This document shows, in pieces, positions 1,267-14,185 of a stretch of DNA of 34,300 nt. The notes under the pieces are model-generated. The model saw nothing but the letters and a program-made list of their open reading frames with translations, did no database searches and was not told where the DNA came from. Origin of the DNA: Nitrospirota bacterium (GTDB lineage: Bacteria; Nitrospirota; 9FT-COMBO-42-15; HDB-SIOI813); the NCBI GenBank assembly GCA_023248395.1, contig JAHFEQ010000008.1, positions 1-34,300 on the forward strand, in the 5' to 3' direction. Position 1 is the stretch's first letter. The number at the start of each line of letters is the position of its first letter. The position numbers and the translations under genes are program-made.

Positions 1267-2702
1267 AAGACTTTCTCTTTGGTTATCTTCGCCTTCCTAT
1301 TACTTTCCAATTTTGCCTTTTCTGCCTTGATTCGTTCGAGCAACTTCTCAGCGGGTTCATCTGATGGGTCCTGAGGCACCAGCTTCCCCTCAAAGGCCCT
1401 TTTCAAGATGCTCTGCCGCAGCCTCTCCGCCTGCTTGAGGCTCTGCTCCACCACCTTCTCCACCTCATCCGCCACAGAGAACCGGCGTTCGATCTCTTCA
1501 ATGATCTTGTGCTGTTCGGGTAGAGGAGGGAGGGGAATGGGTATGTTCATAATAGTATCCCTATCAATTCCCGGGACAGTTGAACCAGCACCTAATCTTT
1601 GAAATAAATGAAAACTAAAATGTACAAAAAAGAAAACATAGCTGGGATTTACATACCATCCTCGAACTGCCATCAATTGCCGGCTAATAGCTGCGTCTTC
1701 AAGATGAAGAATATTTACCTTACCTACGCCTGCCCCTTTTACTGTTATTAAAATATCATTCTTCTTGGCTATAGCCTTGGGTTTTGTAGTCCATTTCGAA
1801 ATAATGGGGTATTTTAAACCAAAATCAGCCGGCCCTGTTAAATAAGGCACGCCTATAGAATCAAAATTATAATCTCCCGTTAGTATATGTTGTCCTGAAA
1901 CTAAATCCGAAATCTCCTCAATCCTCGTCCAAACCCAACCCACTGGTAATTCAAGCAGGTCGTCATTGTGAGCCGAAGGCGAAGCAATCTCATCTTTTAA
2001 AATCGCTTCGGTCATTTTACTCCTTCGCAATGACGGGCGAGAGGACTTTCCTTTTGTATCCTTTTCCCGTTCCTCTTCAATACGCATCAATAACTCAGAA
2101 GCAGGCTCAATCTTACCTTTATTCGCCTTCCGCCATTCCTCGGTCAACTTCCCCTCAAAAGCATACTTCAAAACCGCCTGACGATACCGCTTCAACTCCA
2201 CCTTCACCTTCTTCAGCGCCTCAACCCCAGCATCCAGCTTCGTAAAAACCTCCTCAATCTTGGCAACAATGCGATATTGTTCGGGGAGAGGGGGGAGGGG
2301 GAGTGATGATTTTTCTAAAAACTGAAAATGTCTAGCATATCCTTTATCAGGCAATTGGATAGCCTGCAAAAAATAATAAAATAGTTTTGGATAAAATACT
2401 TCTAAAGGCTTTATGACTTTGACACCATCAGCACCTGCAATAAATTCAAAGTCAACATACTTAACAACTTTTGTATGGTCACCAAAAATTATTACAGGCA
2501 ACTCACATGAAATTTTAAATTTCTCTTTATTTGTATATCCGCCTATAAAAGATTGTCCTTGGTCAATAACTGGCAGTCGCCCTTTTTCCTGATACTCGCT
2601 CTGTTTTAACTTTTTACCAGTTAGTGAAACTTTTTTAACAATCTCCCCCATCCTCGTCCACACCCAGCCTTTGGGGAGAGAAGGATAGTTATTGCTATTC
2701 AT
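1263..2702 (-). CDS. hsdS: Type I restriction-modification specificity subunit HsdS
   Basis: The 479-residue protein has the two-TRD layout of HsdS: target recognition domain 1 (about 8-140), a conserved coiled region starting at PLPEQYRIVAKIEE (about 138-215), TRD 2 (about 250-400), and a second coiled region starting with PLPEQHKII. The two coils are near repeats of each other, as expected for an internally duplicated HsdS. The protein determines the bipartite DNA target for both methylation and restriction. The ATG overlaps the RT stop codon by 8 bases. TRD 1 is much more AT-rich than the coils, in keeping with TRD exchange. Oddly, the linker before TRD 2 (about residues 223-247) is encoded by a 75-bp palindromic repeat, reported separately. 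Confidence 0.95.
   Translation of the reverse strand: MNSNNYPSLPKGWVWTRMGEIVKKVSLTGKKLKQSEYQEKGRLPVIDQGQSFIGGYTNKEKFKISCELPVIIFGDHTKVVKYVDFEFIAGADGVKVIKPLEVFYPKLFYYFLQAIQLPDKGYARHFQFLEKSSLPLPPLPEQYRIVAKIEEVFTKLDAGVEALKKVKVELKRYRQAVLKYAFEGKLTEEWRKANKGKIEPASELLMRIEEEREKDTKGKSSRPSLRRSKMTEAILKDEIASPSAHNDDLLELPVGWVWTRIEEISDLVSGQHILTGDYNFDSIGVPYLTGPADFGLKYPIISKWTTKPKAIAKKNDILITVKGAGVGKVNILHLEDAAISRQLMAVRGWYVNPSYVFFFVHFSFHLFQRLGAGSTVPGIDRDTIMNIPIPLPPLPEQHKIIEEIERRFSVADEVEKVVEQSLKQAERLRQSILKRAFEGKLVPQDPSDEPAEKLLERIKAEKAKLESNRKAKITKEKVL
1961..2035. repeat. 75-bp palindromic repeat inserted in frame in hsdS
   Basis: The element has terminal inverted arms, CGTCATTGTGA at 1961-1971 and TCGCAATGACG at 2025-2035 (one mismatch), and an inner pair CGAAGC/GCTTCG at 1980-1985 and 2005-2010. 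It resembles the CGTCATTGCGAG-type dispersed repeats found between genes in many environmental bacteria. Its length is 25 codons exactly, so hsdS stays open. It encodes about residues 223-247, between the central coil and TRD 2. Confidence 0.8.
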
Positions 2703-4578
2703 CTTTTGCTTTCTTTATATTTTCCATCCTACCCTCAAGGTATCTTTTCGTTTGTTCTATTCTATGCCTTATGTGATTTGGATAATCAGTAAGGTTCAAC
2801 TTTCTAAGGTTTTTTAATAGGGTCTCAATTATCCCCAAATTACTGCTTTCTCGCAGGAGTAAAAGCTTATAAGATTCATCTATAAACATATGCACATCTA
2901 TTCTGAATAGATTTTCGATTTCATATCTCTGCGTTTTATTATCATGCAATATGTCATTAAGAAACTTGGCGAAGAAGGTAACACGAGTATCTGTATCAAA
3001 CATTGCCTGTCTAATAGCTTCCTCTCTTCTTTGCAGATTTGCATTGAGAAAGCAAAGAAGCATAGCACGTTTGACTTGGTAGTTCAGTTCTTCATTAAAG
3101 AGATTCCAAAGACGTATCATATTCCGAGCAGATAACTGGAAGTAAGATAATGCCATTAAACAGTTTGCTCTTATTGACCAATGCATTTTTACATCAGTTG
3201 CATACCTATACAAGGTGGCTTCCAAGGAAGTTGGAAGGTGATTTTTATACCTGTAGATTTCTACAAAGCGTGCGATTTGATATTCAAAAATTTCATCATG
3301 ATTTTTGACAAAGGATAAGACATTCTCTGGGATTTTTTCTCCCTGGTGGAAACCTTTAAAGTATTTTACTATTTTATCTGTGAGAGCAGGGGTGTCTTCC
3401 ATCGCGCTAAAACATCTATAAATGGCACTCCTACTTTTTATCAGAGTTAATGCAGTGAGTAATCTTTTGAATAATCTCACATCCTTTGATTTCAGTTTTC
3501 GAGGAATTTGTTTTAAATATACCTTTAACTTTGCTTCATATTCCTCACACTCCTGTCTGGTTAGCTTACCTGCCTGAGCATTCTTTTGAATATCATCTAC
3601 TATGGGAGACAATTGTTCAAATCTTTCATCATGGATATACGAGAACAATTCAGGGTCGGTATAGATATCTGTTTTCGCTGTCTGAACATTTAAATGCAGC
3701 CCTCTTAACTCTCTATTTAAAACAAATAAGGCCCTTCTGGCATCATTTTTGGTTTTTGCTAATATCTTTACATCATCCATATAGCGGAGGTATTTGATAC
3801 CATGCTCTTGTTCAATTTTTGTAAGCACACGGTCTAATGGAATCAAATAAACATTTCCAAGATAACTACTGATATCGTTTCCTTGAGGGATTCCTCTATC
3901 AACGCGATTTCCCTGAGGAGGTAGCACAGTCCATTGTCCTAAGATATCGACAAGAAGATTGACTGGATAATGATCAGGACTGCCAATACAAGATATCAAT
4001 GTGGATTTAAGAACCTCATGGTTAATGTTCTCAAAATAGGCGGTAATGTCCGTTGTTGCCAAAAAATGATATCCCTCATTGAGGATATACTCTTTCATTT
4101 TTTGATCGAATGCCGGCCATGCATTATACCAATCTTCAAATTGTTTAATCTCTTTTCTTTGTTCGATTGGAAGGAGCGAAATATCTCTATCTTCGAACAG
4201 CCGGTCAGTTTTGCGTTTTTCTTTTGGAATGACTCTGCAGGAATAGACATTATCTGGTAAATCTTTATCAATCTCGTCTGCTATCACGTTGATTATCGCA
4301 TAGAGAACGATAAAGTCTTCAAAGTCAATCACTGTACCTGGTCTTGTTGCAAGGCCAGACTTTGGAACTTCAACTTCTAAAGGAACTTTTGGCCTATATT
4401 GTCTTTGTAATAACTTGTTCCTAAGCTCACTTAATAGACGTTTGCTGCTATGAGTATAATCTTGATGTCTGACAAGGTCTGGAATGAAGAATCGTTTTGC
4501 TCCATCTTTTGCGTAATTAAAAGCAAGTTTAAGATTATCTAAGGATGCAATCTGTTTAAGAAGTGTGCTTTCACTCAT
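2695..4578 (-). CDS. Reverse transcriptase of the UG/Abi (defence-associated) type
   Basis: The 627-residue protein carries an apparently active RT core. Motif A is TTDITAYFENI (D177), motif B is GIPQGNDISSYL (229-240), motif C is YMDD (266-269), and a lysine-bearing region lies near 302. Residues from about 310 to the end are almost entirely helical and look like degenerate HEAT-like repeats, as in the alpha-repeat domains of Abi/UG RTs. There is no group II intron maturase or endonuclease domain, and the gene sits 11 bases after the XRE gene, leaving no room for a retron RNA immediately upstream. The stop overlaps hsdS by 8 bases. Known relatives act in phage defence by templated or untemplated DNA synthesis; I cannot assign a numbered class. 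The AT-rich composition suggests acquisition. Confidence 0.9.
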   Translation of the reverse strand: MSESTLLKQIASLDNLKLAFNYAKDGAKRFFIPDLVRHQDYTHSSKRLLSELRNKLLQRQYRPKVPLEVEVPKSGLATRPGTVIDFEDFIVLYAIINVIADEIDKDLPDNVYSCRVIPKEKRKTDRLFEDRDISLLPIEQRKEIKQFEDWYNAWPAFDQKMKEYILNEGYHFLATTDITAYFENINHEVLKSTLISCIGSPDHYPVNLLVDILGQWTVLPPQGNRVDRGIPQGNDISSYLGNVYLIPLDRVLTKIEQEHGIKYLRYMDDVKILAKTKNDARRALFVLNRELRGLHLNVQTAKTDIYTDPELFSYIHDERFEQLSPIVDDIQKNAQAGKLTRQECEEYEAKLKVYLKQIPRKLKSKDVRLFKRLLTALTLIKSRSAIYRCFSAMEDTPALTDKIVKYFKGFHQGEKIPENVLSFVKNHDEIFEYQIARFVEIYRYKNHLPTSLEATLYRYATDVKMHWSIRANCLMALSYFQLSARNMIRLWNLFNEELNYQVKRAMLLCFLNANLQRREEAIRQAMFDTDTRVTFFAKFLNDILHDNKTQRYEIENLFRIDVHMFIDESYKLLLLRESSNLGIIETLLKNLRKLNLTDYPNHIRHRIEQTKRYLEGRMENIKKAKDE

Positions 4579-5774: not shown

Positions 5775-7166
5775 TCAATTCCCTGTCTCCTCAATTATTT
5801 TTCTCCCTCGTCCTGTGAGAATATACCTACCACCTTTATCAGGCCCGATTCTCTCAAGCAGGCCTTTCTCTTTGAGGTTTCTAATATTTTCTTTAATTTT
5901 CCTTTCAGAAATTCCTACTATAGAAGATAATTTATTTGCCGTTATATATTCATATCTCCTAATCTCTCCTAAAATCCTGATCTGGTTTTCAGTGACCTTT
6001 TCAGTGACCTTTTCAGTGACCTTTTCAGTCTTACCGGCAATCTTGAAATATTCACGGCTTGGAGTGAAGGTTATATAAAAATAATTTTCATTATATTCTA
6101 TTTTTGGATAAGGAGTATTTTCTTTTCTACATATTCTCCTCATTCTACCTATTCCCGTCCCCATCTTTTCACCAAAATGGATTCGGGAAAATAGATCAAC
6201 AATCAGGTGATTTCTTCTAAAGACTGTTTCACCGAGTGTAAAGTGCCGAGGTTTTAGCCAGAAGTTCTCAATTTTTATTTTGCCGGGTAGAAATTTTAAG
6301 ATATTGTTATGTCCGTGCTCGAAATAATACTTATGCATAACCGAATTGATTACGGCCTCCCTTATAGCCTCGAACGGATACTCATATATCTCTTCCCTCT
6401 GTGGTTTTCCGGTAAATCTGTAAGCAACCTTGGAATAAAGTTTTACAAAGTCCATCACCTGTTGAACTATCTCAAAGAGACCACCACCTATCTCTTTCCT
6501 GTCAATGACATCCACCCCCTCTATATCCTTGAATAAGGCGACTGTAAAAACAGACCAGGGTGTAAATCTCTGCGGTTCCCTGGCGAAAAATAGTACCCCT
6601 GCATTGTTGAAATATAGCTTGCCTTCCTGTTTTTCTGCGACACCTAAATTAAGCAGGATCGTCTCAGTATTCGTCGATTTTGAGAGTCCAGCGAGTTCTA
6701 AAAATCTCAACAGTTTATTCTTATCAAAATCCTTTGGATAATTAAACTTCAGATCTATCAGTTCATCAAATCTTATTTTCCCTTCAGATTTGAAAAAGTC
6801 AATGATTTCGTCCCTTGTCATCTTCTGTGAGTTAGGACCTAACCTCTTGAAAAACCCGGCAGAGCACTCATATGGCTTCTCATCGCCCTCCCTGACATGG
6901 ACTATCAGGATGTTTTCAAATTCATCAAACAAAATTTTTACTTTGGGCCGGCAGTTGTTTGCGATGTCCTGGATCTGTGATTTCAATCTATTGGAAATCT
7001 GAACACCTTTTATTTTACCATCATCAGTTATACCAATGAAAATTCTGCCACCTGATGCATTGGCAAAAGCAATGATCTCTTTGTCCAAACCGTTTGTATT
7101 CTCCTTAAATTCAATCTTGTAGCCTTCACCTTCTTGCAGAATTAATTGAAGTTCCTTTTTATTCAT
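5775..7166 (-). CDS. AlbA_2 (Schlafen-like) DNA-binding and HATPase regulator with winged-helix C-terminus
   Basis: The 463-residue protein has an AlbA_2/Schlafen domain at about 12-125 (KIEFKEN, then FANASGGRIFIGITDDG). A GHKL-type ATPase-like region follows at about 260-370, with an N-box-like EAVINSVMH at 270-278 and a glycine motif GTGIGR at 336-341. A short EKVT-repeat linker (about 381-394) leads to a C-terminal winged helix (about 395-460). Such proteins are annotated as ATP-dependent transcriptional regulators and are frequent in defence islands. Its ATG overlaps the hsdR stop by 4 bases, so it is translationally coupled to hsdR. I infer a regulatory or sensing role; enzymatic activity is not shown by the sequence. 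Confidence 0.88.
   Translation of the reverse strand: MNKKELQLILQEGEGYKIEFKENTNGLDKEIIAFANASGGRIFIGITDDGKIKGVQISNRLKSQIQDIANNCRPKVKILFDEFENILIVHVREGDEKPYECSAGFFKRLGPNSQKMTRDEIIDFFKSEGKIRFDELIDLKFNYPKDFDKNKLLRFLELAGLSKSTNTETILLNLGVAEKQEGKLYFNNAGVLFFAREPQRFTPWSVFTVALFKDIEGVDVIDRKEIGGGLFEIVQQVMDFVKLYSKVAYRFTGKPQREEIYEYPFEAIREAVINSVMHKYYFEHGHNNILKFLPGKIKIENFWLKPRHFTLGETVFRRNHLIVDLFSRIHFGEKMGTGIGRMRRICRKENTPYPKIEYNENYFYITFTPSREYFKIAGKTEKVTEKVTEKVTENQIRILGEIRRYEYITANKLSSIVGISERKIKENIRNLKEKGLLERIGPDKGGRYILTGRGRKIIEETGN
5986..6029. repeat. 12-bp tandem repeat (about 3.7 copies)
   Basis: The unit TTTTCAGTGACC is repeated three full times plus eight bases. On the minus strand it encodes the TEKV-TEKV-TEKV linker between the HATPase-like part and the winged helix of the AlbA_2 protein. 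Identical copies suggest recent slippage. The unit is four codons, so copy changes keep the frame. Confidence 0.95.
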
Positions 7167-9979
7167 GCCGCCAGCACCTCGTTCAGATCCTCAAGGATAC
7201 GGTTCACCTCCGGCCCAAAGAGCTGGTGAATCCTGACAGGGCCACCCTTCTCATAGAACGGCGCTAATTCAAGGTCTTCCATGCTGATGCTCAGGGAGGT
7301 GGCGATGTGCTCTTTGATCATCGAGAGCCATTCCCTCTGTTCCGGAGTGAACCGTTTCCCGGCCTTTTCATGATCCAACAGCCATCTGCTAAATCTCCGG
7401 TCCACGGTCTCTGAGAAGGGTTCAAGGATGTTGCTCTCTCCTACGGCAAAGCGGATCAGGGAGATGATGTTGGTCAGGAGCTTTTGCGGCCCTACCCCTC
7501 TGACCTTTGCTTTCTCCAGGTGTTCATAGGCCTGCCAGAGGAGTTCAGGGGTGAGGTTATAGGGCGGTCTTTTGATGGCATCCGCAAGTTCCTTGATCTC
7601 TTCATACACGATGTGACGTCTGCGATAGGGTTTACTGTAGATGATCTGGAGCGCCGATAGCTCATCCCTTTTCTCTTCTATGAATCGCTTGAAGGTATCC
7701 ACAACGGTCCGGGCCTTCTCCTTTGCCTTCTCATCGAAGCCGGCAAAGAGGAGCGCATCTTTGCTTACCGTATCGATGATCTGTTCACTCCTCTTTTTGA
7801 TCTCGATCAGGGTATTTCTCAATACCGGATTGTCAAAAGGGGAACAGGCCACCTTCACCAACTCGTCTGAGGCCTGACGGATCTGCTCTTCTGTCGGCAC
7901 ACCGGTCTTGAAAATCTCCCGTGCCTTCTCTATCTTTTTATCCGGGTCCACGGCATCCAGCAGGTTGTTGATGATCTCTTTTAAGGGCTTCCCATCGGCG
8001 GCAGTCTCTATCTCTCTCCCGTCCTTTTCATCGATCTCTTTCGCCAGCCTTGCAAGCCTTCCGGCCAATGAAATAAGTGTATCCTCGTCCCTATTCCCGA
8101 GGGCAACCGACAGTATGAGTTTATCAAAGGGGATGCCCCTCTTACGCTCCAGCGGCCTTGAGTCTGTCTTGTCATTCTCACAGACCCCCACGGCATCGAT
8201 GATCACAAAGTGGGTTTTATGAACGGCATCGCGTGTGACCGCGTTCAGATCTGTAGGAGAAATAACTCTCGTGCCCCGCCCTTTCATCTGCTCAAAGTAG
8301 ACCCTCGATTTCACATCCCGCATAAATAAGAGGCACTCGAGGGGCTTTATATCCGTGCCTGTTGAGATCATGTCTACGGTCACGGCGACGCGGGGATTGT
8401 AGGAGTTACGAAAACTGGCGATGAGGTCTTCAGGCTTTTCGCCTGTCGTCTTATAGGTGATCTTTTTGCAGAAGTCATTTCCCTTACCAAATTCTTCCCT
8501 GACGATATGGACGATATCTTCGGCGTGGGAATCGTCTTTGGCAAAGATGAGGGTTTTGGGGACATCATTTCTGCCGGGGAATATCTCTGTAAAGAGCTTT
8601 TCCTTAAAGGTCCTGATTACAGTCCTGATCTGATCGGGCGCCACCACATCCCGGTCTAACTGGATCGGTGCATACGCCAGCTCTTCGTCTAATTGCTCCC
8701 ATTTGGTCTTTCTTGTGAGCTTGTCCCTCCTGTCGACATAATAGCCGGCATCCACCTTACTCCCCTTTCCCGTGATCTCGGTCTCGATCCGGTAGACCTC
8801 GTACCCCACATTGACACCGTCTGCAACGGCACGCTCATGGCTATACTCCATGACCAGGTTCTGGTTGAAAAAGCCGAGGGTCTGTTTCGATGGTGTTGCG
8901 GTAAGCCCTATGATAAAGGCGTCAAAATATTCGAGGACCTGTCTCCAGAGATTATAAATAGAGCGGTGGCATTCATCGGTGACGATAAAGTCGAAGGTCT
9001 CAATTGGAATCTGAGGGTTATACAGGACCTCCCTTGCCCTCTCCTCTTCAGGTAAGATATCGAACAGGGACCGCTCTTCCAATTCTGCATCTAACCCCGG
9101 CTCCCCCTTTAGCATGGAATAGAGCCTTTGAATCGTGGTGATGCAGACCCGGCTGACAGGATCGAGGGTATTGGAGGCGAGGTGTTGGACATTGTAGAGT
9201 TCTGTAAACTTCCTCCCGTCATCGGGTGTGACATACTGCTGGAATTCCTTCTTCGCCTGACGCCCCAGGTTACTCCTGTCGACCAGGAACAGGATCCTTC
9301 TTGCATTAGCGAATTTGATCAACCGGTAAATGAAGCTCACGGAGGTATAGGTCTTGCCGCTGCCGGTGGCCATCTGGATGAGCGCCCTCGGTCTTGCCTC
9401 TGAAAAGGATAGGTCGAGGTTTTTGATGGCCTCGATCTGGCAGTCCCTTAATCCCCCCCTTCCCGTTGCAATGCTTCGCAGCAACGAGAACCCAGCCCCT
9501 TTACTAAAGGGGGGTGAGGAGGGAATCAGAGGCGGCATTTGCTTCAGTCTTGTTCGGAGGGTGGCGCTGTTTGAAAGCCACTCTTTCAGGGTCTCCGGCT
9601 TATGAAAGGCAAACACCCTTCGGGAGCGTGTTTCGGGGTCCCGCAGATCCCTGAAAAAGGTCTCAACACCGGTACTCTCATAGGCAAAGGGGAGGGGCTC
9701 CTGGACATGGGGGAGATTCTCAGGGACTCCAACCAGGTAGGCCTGAGATTGCTCTGCCACGCCGCTTAATGTCGTTCCTTCTGGCTTTGCCTCTACAACA
9801 CCAGCCGCCTTTCTATCCACGAAGAGGAGATAATCGGCAGTACCGGATTCGAGAGGAAACTCCCGGACAGCGATACCCAGGGCGGCACTGAGATTTAATT
9901 CCCTCAGGTCTTGCACCTTCCAGCCAGTGGCTTCCAGCAACTTGTCTATATTTTTCCTTGCCTTTTCCTCAGGTTTCAT
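7163..9979 (-). CDS. hsdR: Type I restriction endonuclease subunit HsdR (EcoEI-like)
   Basis: The 938-residue protein starts with a PD-(D/E)xK nuclease domain (GTADYLLFVDRK, D49; VVEAK, E63-K65). The SF2 translocase follows, with Walker A ATGSGKT at 204-210 and a DECH box at 335-338 (TDECHR). Motif III is LTATPSK, and motif VI is seen in QMKGRGTR. The C-terminus (SETVDRRFSRWLL and following) resembles EcoEI-type R proteins. HsdR translocates DNA and cuts it when HsdS/HsdM meet an unmodified site. It is the first gene of the operon, 28 bases or so after the predicted transcription start, with AGGA about 9 bases before the ATG. Residues 152-176 are encoded by a palindromic repeat just before the helicase core. 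All key residues are present, so the enzyme is probably active. Confidence 0.97.
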   Translation of the reverse strand: MKPEEKARKNIDKLLEATGWKVQDLRELNLSAALGIAVREFPLESGTADYLLFVDRKAAGVVEAKPEGTTLSGVAEQSQAYLVGVPENLPHVQEPLPFAYESTGVETFFRDLRDPETRSRRVFAFHKPETLKEWLSNSATLRTRLKQMPPLIPSSPPFSKGAGFSLLRSIATGRGGLRDCQIEAIKNLDLSFSEARPRALIQMATGSGKTYTSVSFIYRLIKFANARRILFLVDRSNLGRQAKKEFQQYVTPDDGRKFTELYNVQHLASNTLDPVSRVCITTIQRLYSMLKGEPGLDAELEERSLFDILPEEERAREVLYNPQIPIETFDFIVTDECHRSIYNLWRQVLEYFDAFIIGLTATPSKQTLGFFNQNLVMEYSHERAVADGVNVGYEVYRIETEITGKGSKVDAGYYVDRRDKLTRKTKWEQLDEELAYAPIQLDRDVVAPDQIRTVIRTFKEKLFTEIFPGRNDVPKTLIFAKDDSHAEDIVHIVREEFGKGNDFCKKITYKTTGEKPEDLIASFRNSYNPRVAVTVDMISTGTDIKPLECLLFMRDVKSRVYFEQMKGRGTRVISPTDLNAVTRDAVHKTHFVIIDAVGVCENDKTDSRPLERKRGIPFDKLILSVALGNRDEDTLISLAGRLARLAKEIDEKDGREIETAADGKPLKEIINNLLDAVDPDKKIEKAREIFKTGVPTEEQIRQASDELVKVACSPFDNPVLRNTLIEIKKRSEQIIDTVSKDALLFAGFDEKAKEKARTVVDTFKRFIEEKRDELSALQIIYSKPYRRRHIVYEEIKELADAIKRPPYNLTPELLWQAYEHLEKAKVRGVGPQKLLTNIISLIRFAVGESNILEPFSETVDRRFSRWLLDHEKAGKRFTPEQREWLSMIKEHIATSLSISMEDLELAPFYEKGGPVRIHQLFGPEVNRILEDLNEVLAA
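9450..9527. repeat. About 78-bp palindromic repeat inserted in frame in hsdR
   Basis: The element has a perfect inner palindrome CCCCTTTACTAAAGGGG at 9496-9512, a second hairpin GTTGC/GCAAC at 9465-9485, and G/C-run ends (AATCCCC at the left, GGGGGG...GGGAATC at the right). It belongs to the C-run/TTTA-TAAA/G-run type of dispersed repeat, like the copy in mtaB. It encodes residues about 152-176 of HsdR, between the nuclease part and the motif LRDCQIEAI that opens the helicase core. The borders are approximate. Confidence 0.75.
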
Positions 9980-12268: not shown

Positions 12269-12865
12269 ATGGCCAGATTTAACCGGATATATAAGGAGCT
12301 CAGTATCGCCTTAGAGGGGCTTAAAAAGGGGATCCTGGAGATAGCGATTACCACAAGCGAAAATACGCAGGTGGCAAAGCTCCTTTTTCAAGTATTCGAA
12401 CTGGAGAAAAAGACAGACAGCCTCTACATCGATATTGGCAAAACGGTTTTTGAACTCCGCCATCTCACCTTTAATGAGATCTTAGATAACAAGGATGTCA
12501 AAGATTACATCCATTCAATCCATTCAATCCAGCAGGATATCCAGACTATAGAAAAAGAGATCAACCTCCTGAGAGAAAACCGTGTCAAGTCCAGGATGGA
12601 GGAAATACAGAGATATATGCGGCGGGGAAACTATACCATTGAGGAGCTTAGGGTAGAGAAAGATTCTCCGGTGACTGGTAAGGAGATCGGCAAACTAAAG
12701 ATTCCTTCCGGAGTTATTATAATATCTGTAATCCACCATGATCTCTTTGCCATGCCGAAAGATAGTCTGTGTCTCACTGAAGGGGACAGGGTTTTTATCT
12801 TAGGTTCAAGGGACAAGATTAATGAAGCGGCATTATTCTTCTCTCCCTCTAAGCACCCTGCCTGA
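12269..12865 (+). CDS. Coiled-coil/PhoU-like protein with C-terminal TrkA-C (RCK_C) domain
   Basis: From the ATG at 12269 the product is 198 residues. The first about 125 residues are helical and PhoU-like. The C-terminal part (IGKLKIPSGVIIISVIHHDLFAMPKDSLCLTEGDRVFILGS) has the sequence pattern of a TrkA-C domain, the regulatory ligand-binding domain of potassium channels and transporters. No channel or transporter gene is adjacent, so its partner is unknown. The open frame runs further upstream to a TTG at 12200, which would add a strongly hydrophobic segment of about 20 residues, a possible membrane anchor, but would overlap radC. Neither start has a clear Shine-Dalgarno sequence. The 3' end overlaps the convergent mtaB by 33 bases. 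Confidence 0.8.
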   Translation: MARFNRIYKELSIALEGLKKGILEIAITTSENTQVAKLLFQVFELEKKTDSLYIDIGKTVFELRHLTFNEILDNKDVKDYIHSIHSIQQDIQTIEKEINLLRENRVKSRMEEIQRYMRRGNYTIEELRVEKDSPVTGKEIGKLKIPSGVIIISVIHHDLFAMPKDSLCLTEGDRVFILGSRDKINEAALFFSPSKHPA

Positions 12866-14185
12866 CAGGCTGTCATTCACCATACCTGACAATTGGACCT
12901 TAATGAATCCTCCCTTACCCCCTGACACCCCCCCTTTTTCCCCCTTTATTAAAGTGGGATTGACCAGCACCTTTAAATAGTTTCCCGTATATCCCTTAAG
13001 CAGGCCGGTCATCTCATCTTCCTCTTCCTCAATCAGGACATCAACGACCTTCCCAATGTATCTGTTCTTAAACTCCCTGTTCTTTCTCTCTCCCAGCCCC
13101 CTTATGGCATCACTCCTCTTTCGCTTAACATCCCCTTTTACGGTCTCTCTCACATCATAGGCGGCTGTCCCATGCCTCGGCGAATAGGCAAAGACATGCA
13201 GGTAGGTTACAGGAAGCCTTCCTATAAAACTGTGTGTATTCCTGAAATGGTGATCTTCCTCTCCAGGATATCCAACCATGACATCGCATCCTATCCCCGC
13301 ATCTTCAATCCTCCCTCTGATCTTTAGTATCAGATCCCCGAAGAATTCCGGTGTATAGTTTCTGTTCATCTTCAGGAGAATATCCTCATCTCCGCTCTGG
13401 AGAGGGATGTGGAAGTGTTTGCAGATCCTCTCCTCTGAGGCCACAAGGTCTATCAACTTATCCGTGATCTCTCTCGGCTCTATGGAAGACAGTCTGACCC
13501 GCTGTATATCTGTCTCTGTCAACATCCTTTCAATGAGGGACGACAGAGAGGCCTTTGGAGCGAGGTCCCTCCCGTATCCGCCGAGGTGTACCCCGCATAG
13601 CACGATCTCCTTATATCCGGATTGATCCAACGATCTTACCTGCCTTACGGCATCATCCGGGTTCAGGCTTCTGCTCTCTCCTCTCGCAAACGGCACAATG
13701 CAGTAGGAACACCGGCTATCGCACCCATCCTGAACCTTTACAAAGGCCCGTGTCCGTGCCGGGAATTCAGTGAAACCGGGTCGTGATATCATCAATGTAT
13801 GAGAGATATCACCCACAAAAATCTTATGGTCATTCGAATCATCCTCATAATTTTTTAAATAGTCCATAAACGCATACTTCTCTTCATTCCCTAAGACCAT
13901 AGAGACACCTTCAACCTTTGCGATCTCTTCAGGCCTTGTCTGGGCATAACACCCTGTCACAATGACCCGTGCCTTATTGTTTCTCCGGATGGCCCTTCTG
14001 ATAAGCCTTCGTGACTCCACATCCCCTTTCCCTGTCACAGTGCAGGTATTGACGACATAGATGTCTGCCTCATCATCGAATGGGACGATGGTATAGTCCC
14101 TGCTGCCACTGATGGAGGACTGTATCGCAGCGGTATCATATTGATTCACCTTGCATCCTAAGGTAGAAAAGGCTATTCTCATCAA
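12833..14185 (-). CDS. mtaB: tRNA (N6-threonylcarbamoyladenosine(37)-C2)-methylthiotransferase MtaB
   Basis: The 450-residue radical SAM methylthiotransferase has the three N-terminal domain cysteines (C11, C48, C79), the radical SAM triad CDSRCSYC (C155, C159, C162) and a C-terminal TRAM domain. The segments GCKVNQYDT and NTCTVTGKGD point to MtaB rather than MiaB or RimO. The enzyme converts t6A37 to ms2t6A37 in tRNAs. The TRAM domain is interrupted at about residues 409-427 by a repeat-encoded insert rich in Gly and Lys. The gene's ATG overlaps the vanZ stop by 4 bases, so it is translated with vanZ and probably miaB. Confidence 0.94.
   Translation of the reverse strand: MMRIAFSTLGCKVNQYDTAAIQSSISGSRDYTIVPFDDEADIYVVNTCTVTGKGDVESRRLIRRAIRRNNKARVIVTGCYAQTRPEEIAKVEGVSMVLGNEEKYAFMDYLKNYEDDSNDHKIFVGDISHTLMISRPGFTEFPARTRAFVKVQDGCDSRCSYCIVPFARGESRSLNPDDAVRQVRSLDQSGYKEIVLCGVHLGGYGRDLAPKASLSSLIERMLTETDIQRVRLSSIEPREITDKLIDLVASEERICKHFHIPLQSGDEDILLKMNRNYTPEFFGDLILKIRGRIEDAGIGCDVMVGYPGEEDHHFRNTHSFIGRLPVTYLHVFAYSPRHGTAAYDVRETVKGDVKRKRSDAIRGLGERKNREFKNRYIGKVVDVLIEEEEDEMTGLLKGYTGNYLKVLVNPTLIKGEKGGVSGGKGGFIKVQLSGMVNDSLSGRVLRGREE
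12905..12961. repeat. 57-bp palindromic repeat inserted in frame in mtaB
   Basis: The element is bounded by AATCC (12905-12909) and GGATT (12957-12961). Inside it has C-runs and the palindrome core CCCTTTATTAAAGTGGG. It is 19 codons long. On the minus strand it encodes NPTLIKGEKGG followed by more Gly/Lys, in the TRAM domain between KVLV and QLSGM. It is of the same general type as the element in hsdR. Confidence 0.75.

Follow-up and report, generated by a model that had tools for sequence, protein, structure and literature searches.

A dispersed palindromic element lies in frame within a loop of the tRNA-modifying enzyme MtaB in a Nitrospirota bacterium

Results

A palindromic element is read in frame within mtaB

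In a draft Nitrospirota genome, 19 residues of the tRNA (t6A37) methylthiotransferase MtaB are encoded by a copy of a dispersed palindromic element. The segment is very probably a copy of a lineage-specific, selfish palindrome that is nearly neutral at a permissive loop of the protein, in the manner of the RPEs of Rickettsia. Positions refer to the window, that is, the whole stretch of 34,300 nucleotides analyzed.

12833 to 14185, minus strand: mtaB, the host gene, encoding tRNA (t6A37) methylthiotransferase (TIGR01579, 433.6 bits; stop codon at 12833-12835)
12906 to 12961, minus strand: in-frame palindromic element of 56 bp, AATCCCACTTTAATAAAGGGGG...GGGAGGATT, encoding MtaB residues 409-427, NPTLIKGEKGGVSGGKGGF
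12939 to 12959, no strand assigned: palindromic core of the element, reading TCCCaCTTTAaTAAAGgGGGA on the minus strand

As the earlier note on this DNA had proposed, a repeat-coded segment of 57 bp is read in frame here and yields a Gly/Lys-rich peptide of 19 residues, of which seven are Gly and three are Lys; the exact element is 56 bp long (12906-12961). Codons 409-427 of mtaB consist of AATCCCACTTTAATAAAGGGGGAAAAAGGGGGGGTGTCAGGGGGTAAGGGAGGATT plus one base, with base 12905 filling out the codon. The AATCC/GGATT ends named in the earlier note are indeed present, but they carry no significance: two such matches occur in the window, where 3.3 would be expected. The recurring part of the element is instead the core CTTTAnTAAAG with C/G blocks on either side: the core pattern TTTAnTAAAGnGGGA has seven matches in the window against 1.4 expected, a number reached by none of 100 shuffles. 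Further, a BLAST search of the MtaB segment against the same genome recovered other copies at E values of 4e-6, 1e-4, and 6e-4. Unlike other copies, which are perfectly palindromic, the one in MtaB is extended and decayed. Folding of the mtaB transcript at the element did not exceed that of shuffled sequences (z 0.65), and an RNA hairpin in the mtaB transcript was rejected on this result.

The element belongs to a dispersed, lineage-specific family

Searches with patterns around CCCTTTAnTAAAGGGGGA revealed ∼20 copies in this genome (a 2.0-Mb draft in 119 contigs, 95% complete), an approximate count drawn from pattern and BLAST searches together. Examples are a perfect 44-bp palindrome at C17:10646, AATCCCCCTTTATTAAAGGAGGAAAGAGGGGGATT at C46:5330, and AATCCCCCCATCCCCCCTTTATTAAAGGGGGGTAAGGGGGGATT at C51:11815. 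The complete unit is AATCCCCCTTAATCCCCCTTTAnTAAAGGGGGAAAnAGGGGGATT, most commonly 45 bp in length: the 29 copies with both ends range from 35 to 65 bp, with 11 copies of 45 bp, seven of 35 bp, and four of 44 bp. No target-site duplication was seen, as none of these 29 two-ended copies is flanked by a repeat of at least 3 nt. The TTTAnTAAAG motif places a TAA in one of the three phases, and the palindrome offers an equal choice on either strand. The remaining two phases are free of stops and give NPPLLKGExGGF or SPFxKGGxRGI.

We surveyed the core across 41 genomes, allowing up to one mismatch; control patterns in this count were mostly at or near zero, with 28 as the highest. The core is present in all 10 genomes of the taxonomic family, at 11-200 copies each. 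Outside the family, one other family carries 15-66 copies and two more carry 6-8, and elsewhere in the phylum the core is absent or nearly so in this survey, with zero copies in most genomes. The core and right end of the element are matched exactly in ten IMG/VR viral contigs (L263-L272); MtaB was not found in viral contigs.

Short palindromes in many copies are also the mark of REP elements moved by a RAYT (Y1 transposase), and Y1_Tnp genes do occur in most of the relatives. However, neither this 95%-complete genome nor the 100%-complete G005, which has 19 copies of the element, contains a Y1_Tnp match, and G014 has 12 Y1 genes but no copy of the element. Moreover, none of the 11 Y1 loci of the relatives has the element core within ∼1.5 kb, and copies of the element are often intragenic. 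We therefore rejected a REP/RAYT origin, which we regard as very unlikely, on the absence of Y1_Tnp, the lack of the core near Y1 loci, and the intragenic copies.

Copies are read in frame in many genes, some of them probably since before the separation of genera

Consistent with the earlier suggestion that repeats serve as peptide in several genes, this genome has 13 element-bearing sites in frame within open reading frames, some of them C-terminal. The hosts include CysS (TIGR00435, 541 bits), HisZ, MtaB, HsdR, an SCO1 protein, a protein with a TIGR03936 domain, a radical SAM protein resembling those of heme synthesis, a DNA methyltransferase (with two copies), and an M56 peptidase. This classing is partly circular, as an in-frame copy itself lengthens an open reading frame; domain matches anchor the named genes, though not all. 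In the sister genome G003, 27 of 71 copies lie deep within long open reading frames, compared with 77% of random positions, and genes are therefore avoided, yet far from cleared. The hosts in G003 include PEP carboxylase, in which one Pfam match spans the insert, as well as a P-type ATPase, Ppx/GppA, a tyrosine integrase, GlnE, and Lnt.

For CysS, SCO1, and the radical SAM protein, the element is found at the same site in the sister genus g4 (G003), and for the last of these also in G007. Because these insertions in three other genes are common to the sister genus, they are old. The CysS site is empty in G002, G004, G005, and G006; together with the site shared with g4, this means most simply that the insertion predates the g1/g4 split and that an essential enzyme has since tolerated it. 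The TIGR03936 protein has the element in a loop in both this genome and G005, whereas G003 and G007, although closer, lack it there. Loop compatibility in these other host genes was read from alignment gaps, and that in MtaB from an AlphaFold2 model. At a CysS site other than that of the element, G005 has HPTIPPLSKGGQRGG.

Within the window, the MtaB copy had been counted as the third in-frame palindrome, after those in hsdS and hsdR. The hsdR copy is indeed of the same family as that in mtaB, and it follows the N-terminal part of HsdR, directly ahead of the helicase domain; the hsdS repeat is a different one.

7163 to 9979, minus strand: hsdR, type I restriction subunit, host of the copy at 9450-9530
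9450 to 9530, minus strand: another copy from the element family, in frame in hsdR and of composite type, with an internal small hairpin CGTTGCAATGCTTCGCAGCAACG
about 1957 to 2037: in-frame repeat of a different family in hsdS, GTCATTG...GCAATGAC

Other repeats and genes in or related to this region may be recorded here. The peptide CHCERSEAIS in L176 looks like that of the hsdS repeat, and a second peptide of repeat-coded appearance, V(A/V)AGFSLR, occurs in unrelated proteins encoded by this genome (L171, L166, and L021), twice in one radical SAM protein. A gene for a 627-aa reverse transcriptase (RVT_1; 2695-4578) stands between hsdS and the genes for an HTH/M78 protein, a Schlafen-AlbA protein, and HsdR, and may be part of a defense island. 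Tandem 12-bp repeats, TTTTCAGTGACC, lie at 5986-6029 in the C-terminal part of the minus-strand Schlafen-AlbA gene (5775-7166).

The element-coded segment replaces native residues in the β2-β3 loop of the TRAM domain

The host protein is, as had been supposed, an otherwise normal tRNA-modifying enzyme: its 450 residues score 433.6 bits against the TIGR01579 equivalog, above the cut-off of 357, and in a Foldseek search its fold matched MtaB 9a6d with a TM score of 0.92. Among named MtaB proteins, the closest is from a Nitrospirae groundwater MAG. The TRAM domain was not detected in a Pfam profile search of the protein. Both the alignment and the AlphaFold2 model bear out the assignment of the segment to a loop, namely that between β2 and β3 of the TRAM domain. 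The model, built with 52 sequences, has a mean pLDDT of 93.4, falling below 50 at residues 416-423; the insert is directly preceded by the end of one strand (405-408), and its last residue, F427, opens the next (427-436). Thus, the element-coded loop is predicted to be disordered and the protein core to be intact. The closing GGF-IKV aligns with the G/N-x-[IV]-[IV]-x-V of other MtaB proteins.

Measured from residue 407 to residue 430, the loop has 24 residues here, 18 in the nearest sister MtaB proteins (G003 and G007, 73% identical), and 15 in almost every one of 50 proteins from other lineages, all of which fall within 14-18. Hence, although the 19 residues described as added are present, the net gain is only six over the nearest sisters and nine over the usual 15-residue loop, and native residues have therefore been replaced. 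Judged from the sequences, the event looks less like a clean insertion than like a replacement. Comparison of SCO1 between this genome and G003 reveals in-frame trimming beside the element, like the loss in the MtaB loop. In the alignment, the MtaB element is absent from the sister genera.

Two further readings of the loop were weighed against these results. An expanded native loop with a chance likeness to the repeat would fit the chance-level AATCC/GGATT ends, and the length of the loop does vary somewhat among the MtaB proteins of the family. However, this explanation has virtually no chance of being correct and is refuted in practice by the DNA identity to unlinked genomic copies (E 4e-6), by the 14-18 residues in all 50 distant orthologues, and by the presence of the same repeat family in the corresponding loop of another MtaB, L064. 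An assembly error, in which contigs were joined at the repeat, is highly improbable as well: the draft is in 119 contigs and a G004 contig ends in the MtaB loop, but the sequences on both flanks belong to a single MtaB reading frame and agree with the sister MtaB proteins before and after the loop, whereas a misjoin at a repeat would fuse different genes.

The earlier note further regarded the segment as a domesticated peptide whose basic residues might affect tRNA binding. The TRAM domain is an RNA-binding domain, and MiaB-RNA complexes exist; the segment carries a net charge of +2, compared with a mean of -1 at the mildly acidic loop of the 50 other MtaB proteins, only one of which reaches +2. 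Co-option of the lysines to widen the RNA-binding surface and change tRNA binding would agree with these observations. Against it, the Lys/Gly content comes with the repeat in every gene that hosts it, the segment is predicted to be disordered and is absent from the sister genera, and the insert of L064 has a net charge of 0. We consider co-option quite unlikely, and the claim of domestication was not supported. The results fit a tolerated insertion with no sign of adaptive domestication.

The same MtaB loop carries the element in a second lineage

An insert conserved in distant MtaB proteins without the DNA palindrome would have spoken against the repeat as its source; none of the 50 MtaB proteins from other lineages has such an insert, and the one further MtaB with an insert at this loop, L064, has the DNA element itself. 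The L064 loop, of 61 residues by the measure above, is a composite of the element family that includes the small hairpin CGTTGCAATGCTTCGCAGCAACG seen in the hsdR copy and keeps the native loop end. In the tree, L064 lies outside the group formed by the present MtaB and those of G003, G007, G004, and G005 (support 98/98). As read from the tree and alignment, either two independent insertions or one insertion with several losses would be needed. Two independent insertions are favored because the sub-type and the reading phase differ, and the insertions in L064 and in the present MtaB are probably independent.

Other MtaB genes provided some additional observations. Contig C78 of G004 (the end of L037) stops exactly inside the same loop (GTGTTGATCTCCCCTTACCCGGGGTTCACAA), perhaps owing to a repeat there too. 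The MtaB of G005 (L044) contains in frame, at about residue 117 of the alignment, the repeat-like peptide PPHPNPLPHGERE, which differs from the present one and lies in another loop, and the MtaB of G021 (L051) has a C-terminal extension, ...DVIPAKAGIQGLS, that resembles a repeat-coded peptide of yet another family.

Discussion

We propose that the element spreads as a selfish sequence and that its 45-bp unit, equal to 15 codons, with no target duplication and free of stops in two of three phases, would often keep the reading frame upon insertion. In-frame outcomes would be frequent because of this length, the absence of a target duplication, and the two open phases in either orientation. Selection would then retain those insertions located in surface loops or linkers. 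The β2-β3 loop of the MtaB TRAM domain would have been hit, most likely after the genus split from its sisters, and most native loop codons would have been lost with the insertion or afterwards, such that the last residues of the element now form the turn and the first residue of β3. The effect on the enzyme is likely close to neutral. It is also conceivable, albeit unlikely, that the element has become frame-neutral by evolution and seeds the same permissive loops repeatedly, making it a steady source of loop peptides, some of them functional and kept across genera.

These findings extend coding palindromes to an uncultured Nitrospirota group, in which one MtaB loop has been struck in two lineages, and the length and phase structure of the short unit can explain the survival of in-frame copies. 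They also carry a warning for annotation, as NPPLLKGExGGF or SPFxKGGxRGI within proteins is repeat-derived. A description of the element sequence was not found in the open-access literature searched.

Among known systems, REPs share with the present element the form of short, many-copy palindromes but usually lie outside genes and are associated with a Y1 transposase, neither of which applies here. The element differs from MITEs in having no target-site duplication in the 29 copies. ERIC and YPAL/RU-2 are likewise small repeats with open frames that fuse to genes; their intragenic fusions, however, involve units 127-168 bp long for which target-site duplications are listed (PMC2229807), whereas none was seen here. 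The closest likeness in kind is to RPEs, which are inserted in frame in many Rickettsia genes, with one host enzyme shown to be active (PMC2229807, PMC10969869), and which have counterparts in Wolbachia and Methanocaldococcus jannaschii (PMC2229807, PMC10969869, citing Ogata et al. 2000, 2002, 2005; Suyama et al. 2005). The RPE unit is of about 105-150 bp (PMC2229807), compared with 35-65 bp (mode 45) for the present element, which differs further in its occurrence in Nitrospirota, its G/C-block sequence, and its two open phases, and is set beside the RPE families by their description. Overall, in both systems dispersed palindromes lie in frame in conserved housekeeping genes and are apparently compatible with the fold, and the present element has the marks of the RPE-like kind: a dispersed palindrome in many copies, in frame in conserved genes, and, in MtaB, at a surface loop.
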